Below, in pieces: positions 56,483 to 64,000 of a stretch of DNA of 64,000 nt. The notes beneath the pieces were generated by a model. That model worked only from the letters and a program-made list of their open reading frames with translations. It did no database searches and was not told the origin of the DNA. Origin of the DNA: Flavobacteriaceae bacterium (lineage in GTDB: Bacteria > Bacteroidota > Bacteroidia > Flavobacteriales > Flavobacteriaceae); NCBI GenBank assembly GCA_947451525.1, contig CANFZM010000002.1, forward strand, positions 1-64,000, read 5' to 3'. Numbering within the stretch: position 1 is the stretch's first letter; every line of letters starts with the position of its first letter. The position numbers were made by a program, and so were the translations under genes.

Positions 56483-58402
56483 ATGAATATGGAAAATGCT
56501 ATTTCACAGCGTATAGCTAATTTTTTAAAAGATTATGAACCATTTAATTACTTAACCCACGAGGATTTAATTAAAATTGTTTCAACCATTCGTGTGCTTA
56601 ATTTAGAAAAACATAAATCCCTGTTTCAAATTAATGAAACTTTACACGATTCTTTTTATGTAGTTGCTTCTGGTGTGATTCATTTATCAGTAATATCAGA
56701 TGCTGAAGAAACTTTGCTTAATAAATGTTATGCTGGAGATATTTTTGGTTTGCGACCATTTTTTGCGAAAAATAACTACCAAATGTCTGCAAAAGCCCGT
56801 GAAGAAAGTATTGTTTACGCTATTCCAATCGTTACTTTCAAACCTTTTGTTGCTCAAAACCCAAAAGTTTTAGATTTTTTACTCGAAAGTTTTGCTGTAA
56901 ATACCAAAAATAGTTTAGATAATCAAAACCACGGATTGATTTCTGACAATATAAGTTACACTGATAATCAGTCGGATATGCAGTATTTTCAGACTTTAAA
57001 CTATAATAAAACACCTTTAAAAATAAGTTTTGATACTCTTATTAAAGAAGCAGCCCAATTAGTTACAGATAACATGTTTGATAGTGCATTAATTACAGAC
57101 CAAAGTTATCCTATTGGTATTGTGACCGATAAAGATTTTCGTTCAAAAGTAGCAACAGGACGCTTTCCGTTAACCAATACTATAGATAAAATAATGGCTT
57201 CCCCAGTTATTACGGTAACCGAGAATATTTCGGTAGCCGAAGCACAATTGGTGATGCTAAAACATGGTGTTACCCACCTTTGTGTTACAAAAGACGGTAC
57301 TGATAAATCGGAAGTAAAAGGAATTATATCCGAACACGACCTAGTTGTGGCCCAAGCTAACAATCCAGGTATTTTACTTAAAGAAATCAAACGCTCACAA
57401 ACAGCAAAAGAATTAAAATTAGTTCGTAATAAATTATCAGATATTATTCAATCGTCTCTTAATAAAAATATTCCGCTTACCCATATTAATAGTATCGTTG
57501 GAGAAATTACTCTTGCTATTGTTAGGAGAGCCGTGGAACAAGCAATTTTAGATTTGGGCTCCCCTCCTGCTCGTTTTGCATGGTTAAGCATTGGAAGTCA
57601 AGGCAGAAAAGAGCAACTACTTTTAACGGATCAGGATAGTATTTTGGTATTTGAAGATGTTTCTGAAGATAAATATAGAGATGTTAAAGACTACTTTTTA
57701 AAATTAGCCAAGAAGACAACAGTAACTTTAGAAAAAGTTGGATTTATGTCTTGTCCTCAAGGGCATATGGCGAGTAACATGATGTGGTGTAAATCTCTGA
57801 CAGACTGGATTAAACAATATAACAACTGGATGAATACTCCAGGTGAAAGCACCAATGAAATAAGCAGTGTTTTCTTTGATTACGAGATGGCATTTGGAGA
57901 GCAAAAAATTGAAGACGCAATAACCGAAACCATTTTTAATAATATAAAAAACAAAGTTCTTTTCTTTGATTATTTAGGAAATGATACTTTAAAAAAACCT
58001 ACGCCACTCAACTTCTTTAAAAAATTCAATGTAGAAGAAGAAGGAGAAAACAAAGGAAAATTTGATATTAAAACAAGAGCGCTAATGCCATTAATTGATG
58101 GGGCGAGAATGCTTGTGTTGAGTAATACTATTAAAGGAATTAATAGTACTTATTTACGATACAAGCAATTAGCCATGGTTGACCCTAAATTTTCAGAGAT
58201 TTATTTAAATTGTGCGGATGCCTTTTTAATATTATCTAAATTTAGAACTTTAGAAGGTTTAAAAAATGATGATTCCGGTCAATTTATCAATTTGGATGAG
58301 TTAACTAAAGTAGATAAAGAAAAATTGAAAAATGCTTTAAATCCTATGAAGGAACTTGAAGAATTAATTAAAGATAAATTCCAATTAACCCAATTTTCTT
58401 AA
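56483..58402 (+). CDS. cNMP-binding, CBS and DUF294 nucleotidyltransferase-like protein
   Basis: 639 residues with four parts: a cyclic-nucleotide-binding-like domain (about 10-140; HKSLFQINETLHDSFYVVASG), a pair of CBS domains (about 165-290; SALITDQSYPIGIVTDKDFR and MLKHGVTHLCV), a DUF294 nucleotidyltransferase-like domain with GSQGRKEQLLLTDQDSILVF, and a C-terminal helical domain. This is the layout of putative signal-transduction proteins paired with DnaQ-like exonucleases, as here. It may respond to a nucleotide signal; the activity is unknown. Confidence 0.92.
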   Translation: MNMENAISQRIANFLKDYEPFNYLTHEDLIKIVSTIRVLNLEKHKSLFQINETLHDSFYVVASGVIHLSVISDAEETLLNKCYAGDIFGLRPFFAKNNYQMSAKAREESIVYAIPIVTFKPFVAQNPKVLDFLLESFAVNTKNSLDNQNHGLISDNISYTDNQSDMQYFQTLNYNKTPLKISFDTLIKEAAQLVTDNMFDSALITDQSYPIGIVTDKDFRSKVATGRFPLTNTIDKIMASPVITVTENISVAEAQLVMLKHGVTHLCVTKDGTDKSEVKGIISEHDLVVAQANNPGILLKEIKRSQTAKELKLVRNKLSDIIQSSLNKNIPLTHINSIVGEITLAIVRRAVEQAILDLGSPPARFAWLSIGSQGRKEQLLLTDQDSILVFEDVSEDKYRDVKDYFLKLAKKTTVTLEKVGFMSCPQGHMASNMMWCKSLTDWIKQYNNWMNTPGESTNEISSVFFDYEMAFGEQKIEDAITETIFNNIKNKVLFFDYLGNDTLKKPTPLNFFKKFNVEEEGENKGKFDIKTRALMPLIDGARMLVLSNTIKGINSTYLRYKQLAMVDPKFSEIYLNCADAFLILSKFRTLEGLKNDDSGQFINLDELTKVDKEKLKNALNPMKELEELIKDKFQLTQFS

Positions 58403-58405
58403 TTT

Positions 58406-59002
58406 ATGATTGATTGGCTAAAAAACATAAATAAAAACTCACCTGAATTTTGGAAGAGTTACTTAACTAAGTTCGAAAAAAAATCCAATCGATACGTAGT
58501 TTTATGTACTGAAACTAGTGGGTTAAATCCTAAAACGGATGTTATCCTATCTTTTGGTGCTATAGCGGTAATTGATTATAGTATTCGTTTAGGGGATGTA
58601 TTTGAAGTGACAATTCCACAATATAAATTCTTACATGATAACGGATTATCTAATGATTTTCTTTTAGAATCCGAGCAGCCTAAATTATCTGAAAATCAAG
58701 CCATTGAAAAACTAATTGATTATATTGGCAATGCAACTTTAGTTGGGCATCGGATACATTTTGATGTAGAAATGATTAATCAGGCTCTAGAAAGATTGGC
58801 TTGCGGTAGATTAAAAAATGAAGCCCTTGATATTGAAGTCATGCATAAAAAATTAAATGACATCAATAACGCAAATTTTTCTATGGACCAGTTAAGTACC
58901 ATTTATAAAATCCAAAAAAACGAGCGTATTTCAACTACCGATGATGCATATACCATTGCACTTTTATTTCTTAAATTAAAATCTCGTTTGGGATTGAAGT
59001 AA
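58406..59002 (+). CDS. DnaQ-like 3'-5' exonuclease fold protein, probably inactive
   Basis: 198 residues of the DEDDh exonuclease fold, 3 bp after the DUF294 gene. Motif I should read D-x-E but is C34-T-E in VVLCTETSGL. Motif II is present (VGHRIHFDVEMINQ). In motif III the final Asp is kept (TTDDAYTIALLF) but the expected His five residues earlier is Ile. Loss of the first Asp and the catalytic His suggests it no longer cuts nucleic acid. The 3' end overlaps the convergent PPTase gene by 32 bp. Confidence 0.82.
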   Translation: MIDWLKNINKNSPEFWKSYLTKFEKKSNRYVVLCTETSGLNPKTDVILSFGAIAVIDYSIRLGDVFEVTIPQYKFLHDNGLSNDFLLESEQPKLSENQAIEKLIDYIGNATLVGHRIHFDVEMINQALERLACGRLKNEALDIEVMHKKLNDINNANFSMDQLSTIYKIQKNERISTTDDAYTIALLFLKLKSRLGLK

Positions 59003-59477
59003 TCGTAATAATTCGTTCAAATCTACCGTGATTAGTTATTGATAAAGGCTTTGTAGAGGAATCAAAAGTGTCAAAATAACTCGGAATTCCATTTTGTACT
59101 TGAATTGTTTCAGGTCTTTTTATGAGTTTTATTCTTTCAAAATCACTAATTAATTGAATTGCTTCCGAATAAATAAATTCGGGAGAGATTTCGGTTCTTG
59201 AATAATAAACCTGATTTCCAAATACTATTTTCCCATCTTCTGAAGCAAAACAGTCAAATTGAATAGGGTTATATTTTCTAATTCCCGATTGCCTATTGTA
59301 TATTTTGTAAGCGGCCTCCTTCCTACTCCATAGACTCCAAATCATAGAGTTTTGATTTTCAGAAGAATGTATCTGTAATTGCTCTTGCAGCGTAAAGATT
59401 TTATTTAAAAAACCTTTTCGTTGCCAGTTACTTTCTTTTTTCGCTAAAGCCAAATCTACAATGTCGTTTCCTATCAC
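58971..59477 (-). CDS. 4'-phosphopantetheinyl transferase
   Basis: 168 residues. It transfers the phosphopantetheine arm of CoA to a carrier protein. Motifs: the N-terminal IGNDIVDLALA (magnesium site), and the WSRKEAAYKI helix. It is shorter than Sfp-type enzymes and closer to AcpS-like dedicated transferases. It overlaps the ACP gene by 4 bp (ATGA), which makes that ACP its likely substrate. Confidence 0.9.
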   Translation of the reverse strand: MIGNDIVDLALAKKESNWQRKGFLNKIFTLQEQLQIHSSENQNSMIWSLWSRKEAAYKIYNRQSGIRKYNPIQFDCFASEDGKIVFGNQVYYSRTEISPEFIYSEAIQLISDFERIKLIKRPETIQVQNGIPSYFDTFDSSTKPLSITNHGRFERIITITSIPNEILI

Positions 59478-59728
59478 TTTTGCGACAACTTGGTTTTAAT
59501 AATTTCTAAAGCGGCTTTTATTGTTACCATTTTTTCCATCGAAATATTGTCAATTTCAATATCAAATTCTTCTTCGGTATCTAAAACAATGTCTACTAAA
59601 TTAGCCGAATTGATTTGCAAATCGTTAATAAAATCGGTGTCTTCGGTTAGATTTTTGAATGCTTCTTCATTCTTAACAAATGGTTGTACAATTGCTTTTA
59701 ATTTTTGTAAAGTTTCTTCTTGATTCAT
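59474..59728 (-). CDS. Acyl carrier protein of the polyketide cluster
   Basis: 84-residue carrier protein. The phosphopantetheine attachment serine is S41 in LQINSANLVDIVLD, where the common DSL is changed to NSA. The recognition helix is acidic (DTEEEFDIEI). It lies between the ketosynthase (3 bp apart) and the PPTase (4-bp overlap), so it is dedicated to this cluster rather than general fatty-acid synthesis. Confidence 0.93.
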   Translation of the reverse strand: MNQEETLQKLKAIVQPFVKNEEAFKNLTEDTDFINDLQINSANLVDIVLDTEEEFDIEIDNISMEKMVTIKAALEIIKTKLSQK

Positions 59729-59731
59729 AGT

Positions 59732-61003
59732 TTATTTGTATTTTTTAAAGAGTACGCATCCATTTACATCTCCAAAACCAAAACTAGCTTTGGCAATTAT
59801 ATTTATTTCTGTTTCTATTATTTTTTTTGGAATACTTTTCTCTGATATTAAACCAGTTATTTCGGGATGTATATCCTCGCAATTAATATTTGGAAAAATA
59901 AATCCGTGGTACAGTTGCAAAATTGTAGCCACACTTTCTATGCTTCCTGCAGCTGTTAAACAATGCCCAACCATTGATTTTAAAGAGTTAATATATGGAA
60001 AGGCATCTCCACTTCGGTTCAAGGCTTCTGTCCAGTTTTTTATTTCCAAACTATCTTTGGAAGTAGCCGTTAAATGCCCATTTATTACATCAATATCTTC
60101 TGAATATACTTTGGCATTTTCAAGGGCATCTGTTATACATTTTTTTACAGCTACCGAGTTGGGCGCTGTCATTGTTCCTTCTCCACGTTGCCCACCAGAG
60201 TTTATGTTTCCACCTAAAACCTCGGCATAAATTCTCGCACCACGGTTTAAAGCGGTTTCTAGATCTTCTAAAATCAATGCTCCTGCACCACTTCCAGGTA
60301 CAAAACCAGAAGCCGTGGCACTCATTGGACGTGATCCTTTTTCGGGAGAATCGTTATGTTTAAAGGTACAAACGCGCATGGCGTCAAAACCTCCCCAAAT
60401 ATAAGGGCCAGAATCACTGGTACTTCCTGCTATTATTCGTTTGGCTTGACCATTTTTAATTCGTTCATACGCCATTAAGATGCTTTCAGTTCCAGTTGTG
60501 CAAGCCGAGGAATTGGTTGTTACTTGATTTCCTAAGCCTAATTTCCCTCCAATATAAGCACTTACACCACTATTCATGGTTTGAACCACGGCAGTGCTAC
60601 CTAATTTTCTGGTTTGAAAATCATCAATTTTGTAAATACTTTCTCTAAATTTATCAATTCCAGAAGTTCCTGTTCCGAAAATTGTTCCCGAATCCCAATC
60701 TGGATTTTCGTTGTTTTCAATTTCTAAACCAGCATCTTTCCAAGCATCCAACGCTGCAATTACGCCATACATTATTCCAGAAGAATTAAAATTCCGCAAT
60801 TCTAATTCGGTAAAATAATATAACGCATAATCGTTGGTAATTTCTGGCCTACCCGATATTTGACATGAAAATTGCAGACGTTCTAATTCGGCATCGTGTT
60901 TTATTCCTGAAATTCCGTTTTTTATAGCATGAGTAAACGAATCAAGACCGAACCCATTTGGAGCCACAATTCCTAAACCTGTTATAACTACTCTATTTTC
61001 CAT
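59732..61003 (-). CDS. Beta-ketoacyl-ACP synthase (FabF/KS type)
   Basis: 423 residues with the full Cys-His-His triad: C168 in NSSACTTGTESI, H310 in INGHLTATSKDSLE and H347 in MVGHCLTAAG. VITGLGIVAPNG opens the protein and GFGDVNGCVLFK closes it. It extends acyl chains on the adjacent ACP, so it may build a starter chain for the type III polyketide synthase. Confidence 0.94.
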   Translation of the reverse strand: MENRVVITGLGIVAPNGFGLDSFTHAIKNGISGIKHDAELERLQFSCQISGRPEITNDYALYYFTELELRNFNSSGIMYGVIAALDAWKDAGLEIENNENPDWDSGTIFGTGTSGIDKFRESIYKIDDFQTRKLGSTAVVQTMNSGVSAYIGGKLGLGNQVTTNSSACTTGTESILMAYERIKNGQAKRIIAGSTSDSGPYIWGGFDAMRVCTFKHNDSPEKGSRPMSATASGFVPGSGAGALILEDLETALNRGARIYAEVLGGNINSGGQRGEGTMTAPNSVAVKKCITDALENAKVYSEDIDVINGHLTATSKDSLEIKNWTEALNRSGDAFPYINSLKSMVGHCLTAAGSIESVATILQLYHGFIFPNINCEDIHPEITGLISEKSIPKKIIETEINIIAKASFGFGDVNGCVLFKKYK

Positions 61004-61052
61004 TTTATTTTATTCTTTTTGAATTGCAAAATTTTAAATATTTTTATTCATT

Positions 61053-61481
61053 TTAAACAATCATTCCTGCAATTGTTCCGTGACAAACTTCAATTCCTAC
61101 ATCGTTTATCATTCGGACTTTGCATTTTAACTTTCCAAATCTAAAATAAATTTTTTCTGAAATCACTGTAACTTTTTCTTTTGGATAAACAGGTTTTAAA
61201 AATTCTATTTCATTAGATGTTAATGCAATTAATGTATTTTTATTGATGTTATTATTTAATAAAAAAATACCAAGACAAACCACTCCTATTTGCGCCATAA
61301 CTTCCGTCAATATCACTCCTGGAGTTACTGGATTATCTTTAAAATGACCTTTATAAAAATCTAAATTCTCATCAAAAGTATAGTTTCCTACTACCCCATT
61401 TTCAGTTATAGAAGTAATTTTATCTACAAAAAGAAATGGTTTAGAATAGGGCAATTGTGCTATAATTTCTGAATATTCCAT
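61053..61481 (-). CDS. 3-hydroxyacyl-ACP dehydratase (FabZ-like)
   Basis: 142 residues with the hotdog dehydratase signature: PYSKPFLFVDKI, the catalytic H46 in KGHFKDNP and E60 in TPGVILTEVMAQIG. It is distinct from the FabZ domain fused to LpxC in this window. It starts 3 bp after the type III PKS on the same strand and likely serves the cluster's ACP. Confidence 0.92.
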   Translation of the reverse strand: MEYSEIIAQLPYSKPFLFVDKITSITENGVVGNYTFDENLDFYKGHFKDNPVTPGVILTEVMAQIGVVCLGIFLLNNNINKNTLIALTSNEIEFLKPVYPKEKVTVISEKIYFRFGKLKCKVRMINDVGIEVCHGTIAGMIV

Positions 61482-61484
61482 AAT

Positions 61485-62537
61485 TTAAAATTTTAATAAA
61501 ATACGTTGAGCCGAAAATCCTGGTCCAAAACTTAGCATTAATCCCTTTTCTCCTTTTTTTGGTTGGGAATCCATAATTCGTTCTAAAACATAAAGGACTG
61601 TTGCGCTAGACATATTACCATATAATCGCAATACTTCCTTGGTATCGTTGATGTTTTTTCCTAAACTAGAAAATAAATCTTCCACAGTATTGACAATTTT
61701 CTTTCCACCTGGATGAAAAATTAAATGATCAATATCTTCTATTTTTAAATTGTTTTTCTTTAAAAAAGGATGAATTATATCTGGAAAATGAGAGGCTATA
61801 GTATCTGGAACTTCAATATCTAAAACCATTTGCAAGCCCGAATTGGTAAGTTTGAAACCCATCATGTGTATGTTATCGTAAAAATGATACATCTCTTCGG
61901 CAAGAATTTCAGGACCTTCATCTTCATCATTTGACGAAAGTAACACACAAGCACCACCATCGCCAAAAATAGCCGCACTTACAATATTTGCCATCGAATA
62001 ATCATCCAACTGAAATGTGGCTGTTGGACTTTCTATAGCAATAACCGCAGCGCGTTTTCCAGGATTGGCTTTCAGAAAATTTTTGGCGTATATCATACCC
62101 GAAATTCCTGCAGCACAGCCCATTTCGGTGACTGGCAAGCGGATGATATCTTGGCGTAATTTTAAAGAATTGATAAGATAAGCATCTAGCGACGGAATCA
62201 TTATTCCGGTGCAACTTACAGTTATAATATAATCTAAATCGGTTGGTTTCCAGTTGGCTTTGTTAAGTGCTTTTTCAAGTACTTTCTCTCCCAAATCAAT
62301 TACTTCTCTTACATAAATAGCATTTCGTTCTTCAAAAGATGTATGCGTAAAAACCTCTATCGGATCCATAATAGAATATCGTTTGTTTACCATTGCTCCT
62401 TCAAAAATCTTTTTTACTTTTCTAATAAAACGTGGTTCTTGGTTAATTAACCATGCATCTAAAAAAGGTAAAATTTCTGCTGTAGTTCTAGAATATTTGG
62501 GTAATTGCTTAGCAACTGTTTTTATTTTTACACTCAT
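61485..62537 (-). CDS. Type III polyketide synthase (chalcone synthase-like)
   Basis: 350 residues of the chalcone/alkylresorcinol synthase superfamily. The catalytic triad is C141 in EMGCAAGISG, H275 in LIFHPGGKKIV and N308 in YGNMSSATVLYVLE. SCTGIMIPSLDAYLIN and the GFGPGFS-type end (LSFGPGFSAQRILLKF) fit the family. It extends an acyl starter with malonyl units and cyclises it; likely products are alkylresorcinols or alkylpyrones. Its ACP, KS and dehydratase neighbours suggest a carrier-bound starter chain. Confidence 0.94.
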   Translation of the reverse strand: MSVKIKTVAKQLPKYSRTTAEILPFLDAWLINQEPRFIRKVKKIFEGAMVNKRYSIMDPIEVFTHTSFEERNAIYVREVIDLGEKVLEKALNKANWKPTDLDYIITVSCTGIMIPSLDAYLINSLKLRQDIIRLPVTEMGCAAGISGMIYAKNFLKANPGKRAAVIAIESPTATFQLDDYSMANIVSAAIFGDGGACVLLSSNDEDEGPEILAEEMYHFYDNIHMMGFKLTNSGLQMVLDIEVPDTIASHFPDIIHPFLKKNNLKIEDIDHLIFHPGGKKIVNTVEDLFSSLGKNINDTKEVLRLYGNMSSATVLYVLERIMDSQPKKGEKGLMLSFGPGFSAQRILLKF

Positions 62538-62550
62538 ATTTTTTTATTTT

Positions 62551-62613
62551 AGACCAATGGATGATAGACTAATAGATGATAGACGAATAGATGATAGACG
62601 AATAGATAATAGA
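62551..62613. repeat. 15-bp tandem repeat, arm 1 of inverted pair
   Basis: About four units of AATAGATGATAGACG in a row, lying in the 196-bp gap between the methyltransferase and type III PKS genes. The complement occurs at 62679-62731. Confidence 0.9.
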
Positions 62614-62678
62614 TCTACTGTTAACGGAAAAGTTAAATAATTAATAATCAATATTTTAATTGCCAAATTTATTTTATA

Positions 62679-62731
62679 ATCTATCATTTGTATGTCTATT
62701 ATCTATTCGTCTATCATCTATCTGTCTATTA
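62679..62731. repeat. 15-bp tandem repeat, arm 2 of inverted pair
   Basis: Complementary units (CGTCTATCATCTAT, TGTCTATTATCTATT) to those at 62551-62613. The two arms can form a long imperfect hairpin in the operon transcript, just after the methyltransferase stop. Confidence 0.88.
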
Positions 62732-62733
62732 AT

Positions 62734-63447
62734 TTAAACTTTTTCAATAATCCACTGATATCGAAACGCCCATTTCCAGTGAATGGAATATTTTTTCAAC
62801 TTTAATTTTTTTGAAAAATCTTCTAATTCTTCTTTTTTAAAACCTCTTAAAATTGAAATTAAGCCATCTTCTCTTGACATGGAATTCAATTTAAAAACAA
62901 AACACAATGCCTGAAATAATCGATAGGCAATTTTGCTTCTTTGTAAATCATTAATAATAATTCCAATACTCGAATTTTTATAGAAGATAGACATTAATTT
63001 TAGGATTTCAGCATCTTTAAAATGATGTAAAGTCAAGTTGCAAACTACAATATCATATTTTAAAGAGTTGAATTTGCTATCAAAAATATCTTCACATTTA
63101 TAAGTAATATTTGGATACTCTTTAGATAATTCCTTTGCATGATCAATTGTAAATGGATTAGCATCGATACCAATTAATTGGAAATTTAAGTTGTTATCCT
63201 TAGCATATTCTGCTAAAACTCGCAACATATCTCCATTTCCGCAACCAATATCAACTATAGTAATTGTTTTGCCTAAATCCAATGCTTGCAACAAATATTG
63301 AACTCCCTGCAAAATCAACTTATTCCCTCCTAGTAACTGGTTTATTTTTGCTATTTTATCTAAAGCATCCCGAAGAACTTCACCTACTAAAGTAAAGTCA
63401 TCCATTATTTCGGGTTCATCTGTTCTATGTTCAGTATTTAGAGACAT
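62734..63447 (-). CDS. SAM-dependent methyltransferase (class I)
   Basis: 237 residues with motif I VDIGCGNGDML, motif II IGIDANP, then EDIFDSKFNSLKYDIVVCNLTLHHFKD (motif IV region). The N-terminal helix has MDDFTLVGEVLRDALDKIAKINQLLGG, typical of the methyltransferases found in flavobacterial type III PKS clusters. It probably methylates the polyketide product or an intermediate. It starts one base before the oxidoreductase stop region ends, so the two are tightly linked. Confidence 0.92.
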   Translation of the reverse strand: MSLNTEHRTDEPEIMDDFTLVGEVLRDALDKIAKINQLLGGNKLILQGVQYLLQALDLGKTITIVDIGCGNGDMLRVLAEYAKDNNLNFQLIGIDANPFTIDHAKELSKEYPNITYKCEDIFDSKFNSLKYDIVVCNLTLHHFKDAEILKLMSIFYKNSSIGIIINDLQRSKIAYRLFQALCFVFKLNSMSREDGLISILRGFKKEELEDFSKKLKLKKYSIHWKWAFRYQWIIEKV

Positions 63448-64000
63448 TTAATTTTCAATTGTTATAGGTTTTCCATGGGTCTTTTTAATAATACTATTTA
63501 GTAAAAAAGGAAATAATAGTACAATATGCAGCAATTTTTCTGAAAGTTTTGGATTCAATAAAATTTTAGATAACAATCTTCCTATTTTTATTCGCCAATT
63601 AAAATTTGAATTCCATTTTTCTTGGTATTTATTTTCTAATTCAATTCTAGTTTTTATTTCCTTATTAAAATAAGCAATAACTAATTCAGAAACAATTTTA
63701 GCACTATGAATAGCCATTGCCATTCCGTTTCCGCTCAACGGATGAATTAATCCAGCAGTATCACCAATCATTAAAATATGATTTTCTACTGCTTGTTTTG
63801 GAACAAAAGAAATCTGACTTATTGTTAATGGTTTTTCAAAAAGGAGTTTAGAATTTTCAAATATTTTTTGCAAATGTGGGTTTTGTTTCACCACTAAATT
63901 TTGAAAATCTGCAATATTTTTATATTCTTTAAAAGAACTATACTTGGTTAAGTAGCAAATGTTTATTCTATTATTTTCAACTTTGGAAACTCCACAATAA
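63448..64000 (-). CDS. FAD-dependent oxidoreductase (geranylgeranyl reductase-like), partial
   Basis: C-terminal part of a flavoprotein monooxygenase/reductase; the frame stays open to the window edge (YCGVSKVENNRINICYLT read from 64000 downwards), so the track start at 63894, a GTG, is internal. The FAD-binding motif GDTAGLIHPLSGNGMAMAIHSAK is present, followed by a helical tail with a hydrophobic segment. It belongs to the type III PKS cluster and may hydroxylate or reduce the polyketide. Confidence 0.88.
   Translation of the reverse strand, partial: YCGVSKVENNRINICYLTKYSSFKEYKNIADFQNLVVKQNPHLQKIFENSKLLFEKPLTISQISFVPKQAVENHILMIGDTAGLIHPLSGNGMAMAIHSAKIVSELVIAYFNKEIKTRIELENKYQEKWNSNFNWRIKIGRLLSKILLNPKLSEKLLHIVLLFPFLLNSIIKKTHGKPITIEN

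Follow-up and report, generated by a model that had tools for sequence, protein, structure and literature searches.

The arsABCD operon of Azotobacter vinelandii combines a fatty acid synthase (FAS), ArsA, with the type III polyketide synthases (T3PKSs) ArsB and ArsC and a phosphopantetheinyl transferase (PPTase), ArsD, and in this system acyl chains are transferred from the acyl carrier protein (ACP) to the T3PKS (PMC4824345, PMC6274091). Its products are the alkylresorcinol/alkylpyrone lipids of the cysts. ACP-linked chains are also taken by two other T3PKSs, CylI (cylindrocyclophane), which is fed by type I PKSs, and the germicidin synthase Gcs, for which the use of hexanoyl-ACP has been demonstrated and for which the review mentions no chain-building genes particular to its cluster (PMC8086630, PMC6274091). 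The srs, pkqABC, ftp and hidABC operons make alkylquinones, polyketide quinones and hierridins, and operons that combine a T3PKS with a methyltransferase (MT) and an oxidoreductase lead to polyketide quinones in Streptomyces and Mycobacterium (PMC9927152) and to alkylresorcinols with one added methyl group in planctomycetes (PMC10896814). The dialkylresorcinol loci of the DarAB type in Bacteroidota have DarB in the place of a T3PKS and employ a different ring-forming chemistry. In an antiSMASH survey, T3PKS clusters made up 9% of the predicted clusters of Flavobacteriaceae (PMC7440613); no paper on the content or product of the cluster analyzed here was found in the open-access literature.

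The cluster lies at the right-hand end of a stretch of 64,000 nucleotides (the window) from a Flavobacterium-like genome of 2.84 Mb in 51 contigs (Table 1). In the direction of transcription, its genes encode the FAD oxidoreductase, MT, T3PKS, dehydratase (DH), ketosynthase (KS), ACP and PPTase. The MT gene abuts the FAD gene without a gap, 3 bp separate T3PKS from DH and KS from ACP, the ACP stop overlaps the PPTase start, and there is a single longer spacer, of 196 bp, between MT and T3PKS. The initial annotation had grouped these genes into one cluster and had pointed to the sequence right of the window, and the grouping holds, all of the genes being present with intact active sites. The FAD gene, which is cut by the window edge, extends about 584 bases beyond it (C2:63448-64584) and encodes 378 aa from a TTG start on the contig; the next gene is divergent and unrelated, which indicates that the cluster ends there and is complete in this genome. 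As in arsABCD, fatty-acid machinery, a T3PKS and a PPTase share one operon. ArsA, however, is a type I multidomain FAS accompanied by two T3PKSs, whereas the present cluster has a discrete ACP, KS and DH (and, in fuller clusters, an enoyl reductase, ER) with one T3PKS, and adds the MT and the FAD enzyme. With srs, pkq and hid it shares the front trio T3PKS-MT-FAD, when compared by operon descriptions, but the descriptions of srs, pkq and hid include no ACP, KS, DH or PPTase.

Table 1. Features of the cluster, with window coordinates.
Feature	Coordinates	Strand	Evidence and remarks
PPTase, Sfp/AcpS-superfamily 4'-phosphopantetheinyl transferase, GTG start	58971..59477	-	PF01648 E 3.5e-11
ACP, attachment Ser in INSA motif	59474..59728	-	NCBIfam ACP models E 7e-12, below cut-off
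FabF-like beta-ketoacyl-ACP synthase (KS)	59732..61003	-	fabF model 274 bits, cut-off 494
FabZ-like 3-hydroxyacyl-ACP dehydratase (DH), FabA/FabZ type	61053..61481	-	PF07977 E 2.7e-14
Type III PKS (T3PKS)	61485..62537	-	Chal_sti_synt N + C, E about 1e-20
MT-T3PKS spacer with inverted repeats	62538..62733	-	repeat and fold analysis
SAM-dependent methyltransferase (MT), PRK06202/UbiG-like	62734..63447	-	PF13649 E 4.6e-15; NF004851 131 bits, below cut-off
FAD-dependent oxidoreductase, C-terminal part	63448..64000	-	gene runs on to about 64584

The ACP has no Pfam match and its NCBIfam scores are below cut-off, yet it aligns with ACP models over the full length, and the Ser of the NSA motif first noted at its attachment site proves to be invariant in 93/93 ACPs. 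The Cys-His-Lys-His active site of the KS is kept in 94/94, the His and Glu of the DH in 96/96, and the Asp/Lys/Glu catalytic columns of the PPTase in 84/84. A second PPTase is encoded in the same genome at C3:134599. No ketoreductase, FabH or malonyl transferase was found in the cluster, and the missing ketoreductase step is presumably borrowed from FabG.

The T3PKS retains the Cys-His-Asn triad and the FGPGF loop in 96/96 loci. Its AlphaFold model (pLDDT 86) has PKS11 and CylI as nearest folds, with a TM-score of about 0.9; PKS11 is the nearest solved T3PKS by both sequence and fold, CylI by fold. In CHS numbering, two of the three basic positions that bind CoA in CHS are kept (K55, and R58 as Lys), while K62 is Gly in most orthologues, a pattern that does not discriminate between CoA and ACP substrates. 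At the equivalent of CHS Gly256 and ArsB Trp281, as mapped through alignments of PKS11 and CHS rather than of the ArsB/ArsC sequences, all 96 orthologues have Phe, and six T3PKSs of similar trios have Trp. Met occupies the position that corresponds to CHS Phe265, and the same residue has been reported for HidC-type enzymes (PMC8086630). An aromatic residue at the ArsB-Trp281 position, which the cluster shares with the srs, pkqABC, ftp and hidABC systems (PMC9927152, PMC10896814, PMC8086630), has been tied to resorcinols (PMC6274091, PMC8086630, PMC9927152), and the replacements of ArsB Trp281 and of trORAS Phe252 by Gly shift the product from resorcinol toward pyrone (PMC6274091, PMC8086630). 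PKS11 likewise has Trp at this cyclisation position, yet its described products are methyl-branched alkylpyrones, so that the Phe does not by itself establish a resorcinol and carries moderate weight.

In Bacillus bps, a T3PKS is paired with an ICMT-like methyltransferase; assignment of the cluster to this type was rejected, its MT being Methyltransf_25/UbiG-like and not ICMT-like. The FAD enzyme belongs to the class A flavoprotein monooxygenase/geranylgeranyl-reductase superfamily, where it falls between geranylgeranyl reductases, aromatic hydroxylases and halogenases, and neither its sequence nor its fold settles which reaction it carries out. A flavin-dependent halogenase was rejected on the absence of the WxWxIP motif, though halogenases are among the nearest folds.

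A contig search returned 80 relatives with T3PKS identities of 78-93%, and these, together with further genomes, gave the 96 loci that were scored by profile HMMs, which span Flavobacterium, other Flavobacteriaceae, Kaistella and Pedobacter. The laboratory strain Flavobacterium aquatile LMG 4008 (L012) is one of the bacteria with the cluster. The set FAD-MT-T3PKS-DH-KS-ACP-PPTase is present in 75/96 loci; an SDR is added with the PPTase kept in 9/96, and added with the PPTase absent in another nine complete loci of the 96, while L042 and L047 are short contigs. Gene order is kept in all sufficiently long relatives except L061 (Flavobacterium taihuense), in which the KS is present and ACP and PPTase are absent right of 12785 on the contig, possibly through a recent loss. 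This conservation of order is far beyond chance. Across the loci the key catalytic residues are invariant, the exceptions being a single FAD row, which is truncated, and an acidic column of the MT alignment, and the median identity to the proteins of the window is 85% for the T3PKS, the most conserved member of the cluster, followed by KS (78%), DH (71%), MT (66%), ACP (62%), FAD enzyme (60%) and PPTase (46%). The L042 contig, which is filed under a Candidatus Nitrotoga MAG and bears a Flavobacterium-type cluster (T3PKS 87%), is most likely misbinned.

Among 396 Bacteroidota genomes, a close T3PKS (at least 67% identity, with paralogues clearly apart at 29-37%) occurs in 34, and a KS at an identity of at least 61% occurs in exactly the same 34, no discordant genome being seen; both are absent from 7 of the 24 Flavobacterium genomes. 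The hypergeometric P for this co-occurrence, 6e-50, takes no account of relatedness, which makes any formal value meaningless, and is not to be taken as a probability; the same co-occurrence is expected of any operon that is inherited as a block. The trees of T3PKS and KS broadly agree. In both, the Pedobacter sequences form a single clade, which groups with those of Flavobacterium and Kaistella and is separate from other Flavobacteriaceae; this suggests that the cluster was transferred between families as a unit.

The spacer between MT and T3PKS contains 15-bp tandem repeats in inverted arrangement (TAGACGAATAGATGA), which form an extended hairpin with almost perfect pairing (RNA -59.8 kcal/mol, z -7.9). 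Within this genome the element is apparently unique, with one weak match elsewhere, and it was not found in the corresponding spacers of the 95 relatives. No exact match to the Bacteroidetes-type promoter pattern was found within 20 kb, and a scan for sigma-70 promoters gave results at chance level. At the other end of the cluster, the PPTase gene and a convergent gene for a DnaQ-like exonuclease overlap tail to tail by 32 bases (58971-59002). The flank on that side (56483-59002) encodes this exonuclease and a DUF294/CBS/cNMP-binding protein, a pair that is found near the cluster in 47/80 relatives; the other flank (C2:71238-75280), about 7 kb past the FAD gene, carries two acetyl-CoA-synthetase-like genes, a symporter/kinase and a response regulator.

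The SDR of the fuller clusters, which lies between T3PKS and DH in 18/96 loci and is borne, for instance, by Kaistella soli, has the enoyl-ACP reductase FabL as its best family model, with a score below cut-off. The spacing typical of FabG is Y-X3-K, whereas the Y-X6-K of enoyl reductases is clear in 17 of the 18 SDRs, the L121 copy being unclear. The fuller clusters thus encode an ER-like SDR, DH, KS and ACP; a ketoreductase is absent from all of them, and the gene set is otherwise the same with and without the SDR. Clusters that bear the SDR (L033, L067, L074) are scattered on the trees among those that do not, which suggests that it was probably lost several times. It is absent from the cluster of the window and from most Flavobacterium, and the lineage of the window probably lost it. 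When the window and the 550-bp gaps of three other loci (L035, L073, L149) were searched for a decayed copy, tblastn matches lay only at the T3PKS end, so that a remnant is not indicated, and the rest of the genome holds only SDR paralogues at 25-34%.

The two halves of the cluster can also be followed in other settings. The front trio, T3PKS-MT-FAD, is adjacent and co-directional here; similar trios occur in Paenibacillus, Paracoccus and Deinococcus, and Psychrobacter has the set in another gene order. On plasmids of Sphingobium (L181) and Novosphingobium (L185), an ACP and a KS stand directly upstream of the T3PKS, with MT and FAD genes adjacent, and no DH or PPTase was found within the stretch of these clusters that was seen. 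No characterisation of the sphingomonad clusters was found in the literature. Identities between L181 and the window are low (T3PKS 26%, MT 28%, FAD 22%, KS 25%, the ACP barely alignable), and the pairing of ACP and KS with the trio has apparently arisen at least twice, independently; among the independent lines of evidence that the genes are functionally linked, this repetition is the strongest. The other Bacteroidota T3PKSs examined (the group at 29-37% identity) are mostly paired with ICMT-like methyltransferases, without ACP or KS.

The back half, for its part, appears beside other enzymes in five genomes that have a KS at 47-56% and no close T3PKS. A related ER-DH-KS-ACP-PPTase module (KS 56%), with the SDR as its ER, adjoins DarB and a DarA-like gene in L141 and L142. 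DarB scores above cut-off in both (635 bits in L141; G392/L142), L141 has DarH as well, and the DarB-linked KSs form the sister group of the T3PKS-linked KSs among the sequences sampled. The occurrence of the back half with two resorcinol-type ring-forming enzymes marks it as a reusable chain-building module. In L143-L145, an uncharacterised lipid locus of another Bacteroidota family, DH-KS-ACP is accompanied by acyltransferase-like and GT2 glycosyltransferase genes; L143 has an SDR in addition and, further off, a BioF/SPT-like gene. The genome of the window has no DarB above cut-off (best score 36.6 bits against 550). Mutual exclusion of the T3PKS cluster and DarB was considered for Flavobacterium and rejected, there being no association among 24 genomes (10 with both, 7 and 3 with one only, 4 with neither; Fisher P 0.66).

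We consider it reasonably probable that the cluster is a single unit in which an acyl-ACP-fed T3PKS makes an alkylresorcinol for subsequent methylation and oxidation, so that the cluster would represent a discrete type II counterpart of ArsABCD combined with tailoring of the srs/pkq/hid type. The PPTase, or the housekeeping one, would charge the ACP, on which KS and DH, with the housekeeping FabD, FabH and FabG, would build the acyl chain; the enoyl reductase step would be supplied in cis in the sister clusters and by the housekeeping FabI here. The T3PKS would then take the chain from acyl-ACP, extend it with malonyl-CoA and close the alkylresorcinol, and the MT would methylate the ring and the FAD enzyme hydroxylate or oxidise it, so that the pathway would end in a membrane-located quinone or methylated phenolic lipid. 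The gene content, the intact active sites and the joint inheritance of the genes are direct observations; for acyl-ACP transfer, chain length, resorcinol cyclisation, product and role alike, we infer what would happen from sequence comparison. The synthesis of an ACP-bound starter that feeds the T3PKS, as proposed in the initial annotation, is well supported comparatively by the identical KS and T3PKS genome sets, the invariant active sites, the ER-like gene, the DarB-linked module and the sphingomonad pairing. That annotation had noted that T3PKSs normally take CoA substrates, which would make the use of an ACP unusual; such use has precedents in Ars, Gcs and CylI.

The chain built on the ACP could instead have a separate destination, the T3PKS using acyl-CoA or housekeeping acyl-ACP while the product of ACP, KS and DH is added at a subsequent step, for instance through an ester bond, or enters another lipid. 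The relatives of the back half that stand without a T3PKS, by DarB (L141, L142) or in L143-L145, are in keeping with such a division, as is the proposal that planctomycete T3PKSs use acyl-CoA in Corynebacterium (PMC10896814); but inside the clade of KSs at 60% identity every KS is accompanied by the T3PKS, the cluster contains no acyltransferase or ligase, and the sphingomonad ACP and KS sit directly upstream of the T3PKS, so that we regard this division as unlikely. An alkylpyrone as product, rather than a resorcinol or quinone, appears less probable still. It is suggested by PKS11, the nearest solved T3PKS and an alkylpyrone enzyme, and by the ICMT-like methyltransferases that adjoin most other Bacteroidota T3PKSs examined, as in the Bacillus bps pairs; against it, all 96 orthologues have an aromatic residue where ArsB has Trp281, and the MT is of a different class and is combined with an FAD enzyme, an arrangement known from alkylquinone operons (PMC9927152, PMC10896814).

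Of the two products initially named as plausible, a membrane phenolic lipid or a pigment, the same Phe and the MT-FAD trio favour the former over a pyrone, while the case for the latter is weak: the cluster has no gene for an aryl-polyene starter, DarB is missing from the genome, and the ER-like gene of the sister clusters would lead to a saturated chain. A pigment of the aryl-polyene/flexirubin type, with a chain left unsaturated because the cluster of the window lacks an ER, would agree with the absence of the ER-like gene here and in most Flavobacterium and with the KS relatives that adjoin DarB. We nevertheless judge it very improbable, because the cluster has no tyrosine ammonia-lyase or aryl ligase, DarB is absent from the genome and distributed independently of the T3PKS cluster in Flavobacterium, and clusters with and without the ER otherwise share one gene set.

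The methylated alkylresorcinol or quinone that is predicted on the preferred reading, in which the T3PKS is fed by the cluster's own ACP, would be a lipid class of a very widespread group, T3PKS clusters being among the commonest predicted in Flavobacteriaceae, and the cluster offers a compact test system for the hand-over of a chain from a discrete ACP to a type III PKS. It is a more speculative and rather doubtful suggestion that the product is a polyketide quinone which serves Flavobacterium and its relatives as a membrane electron carrier besides menaquinone, with a tail whose length is set by the discrete fatty-acid enzymes of the cluster itself. If this were true, both the tail and the head of a lipid with a respiratory or redox role would be encoded in one cassette that has been exchanged between Bacteroidota families.
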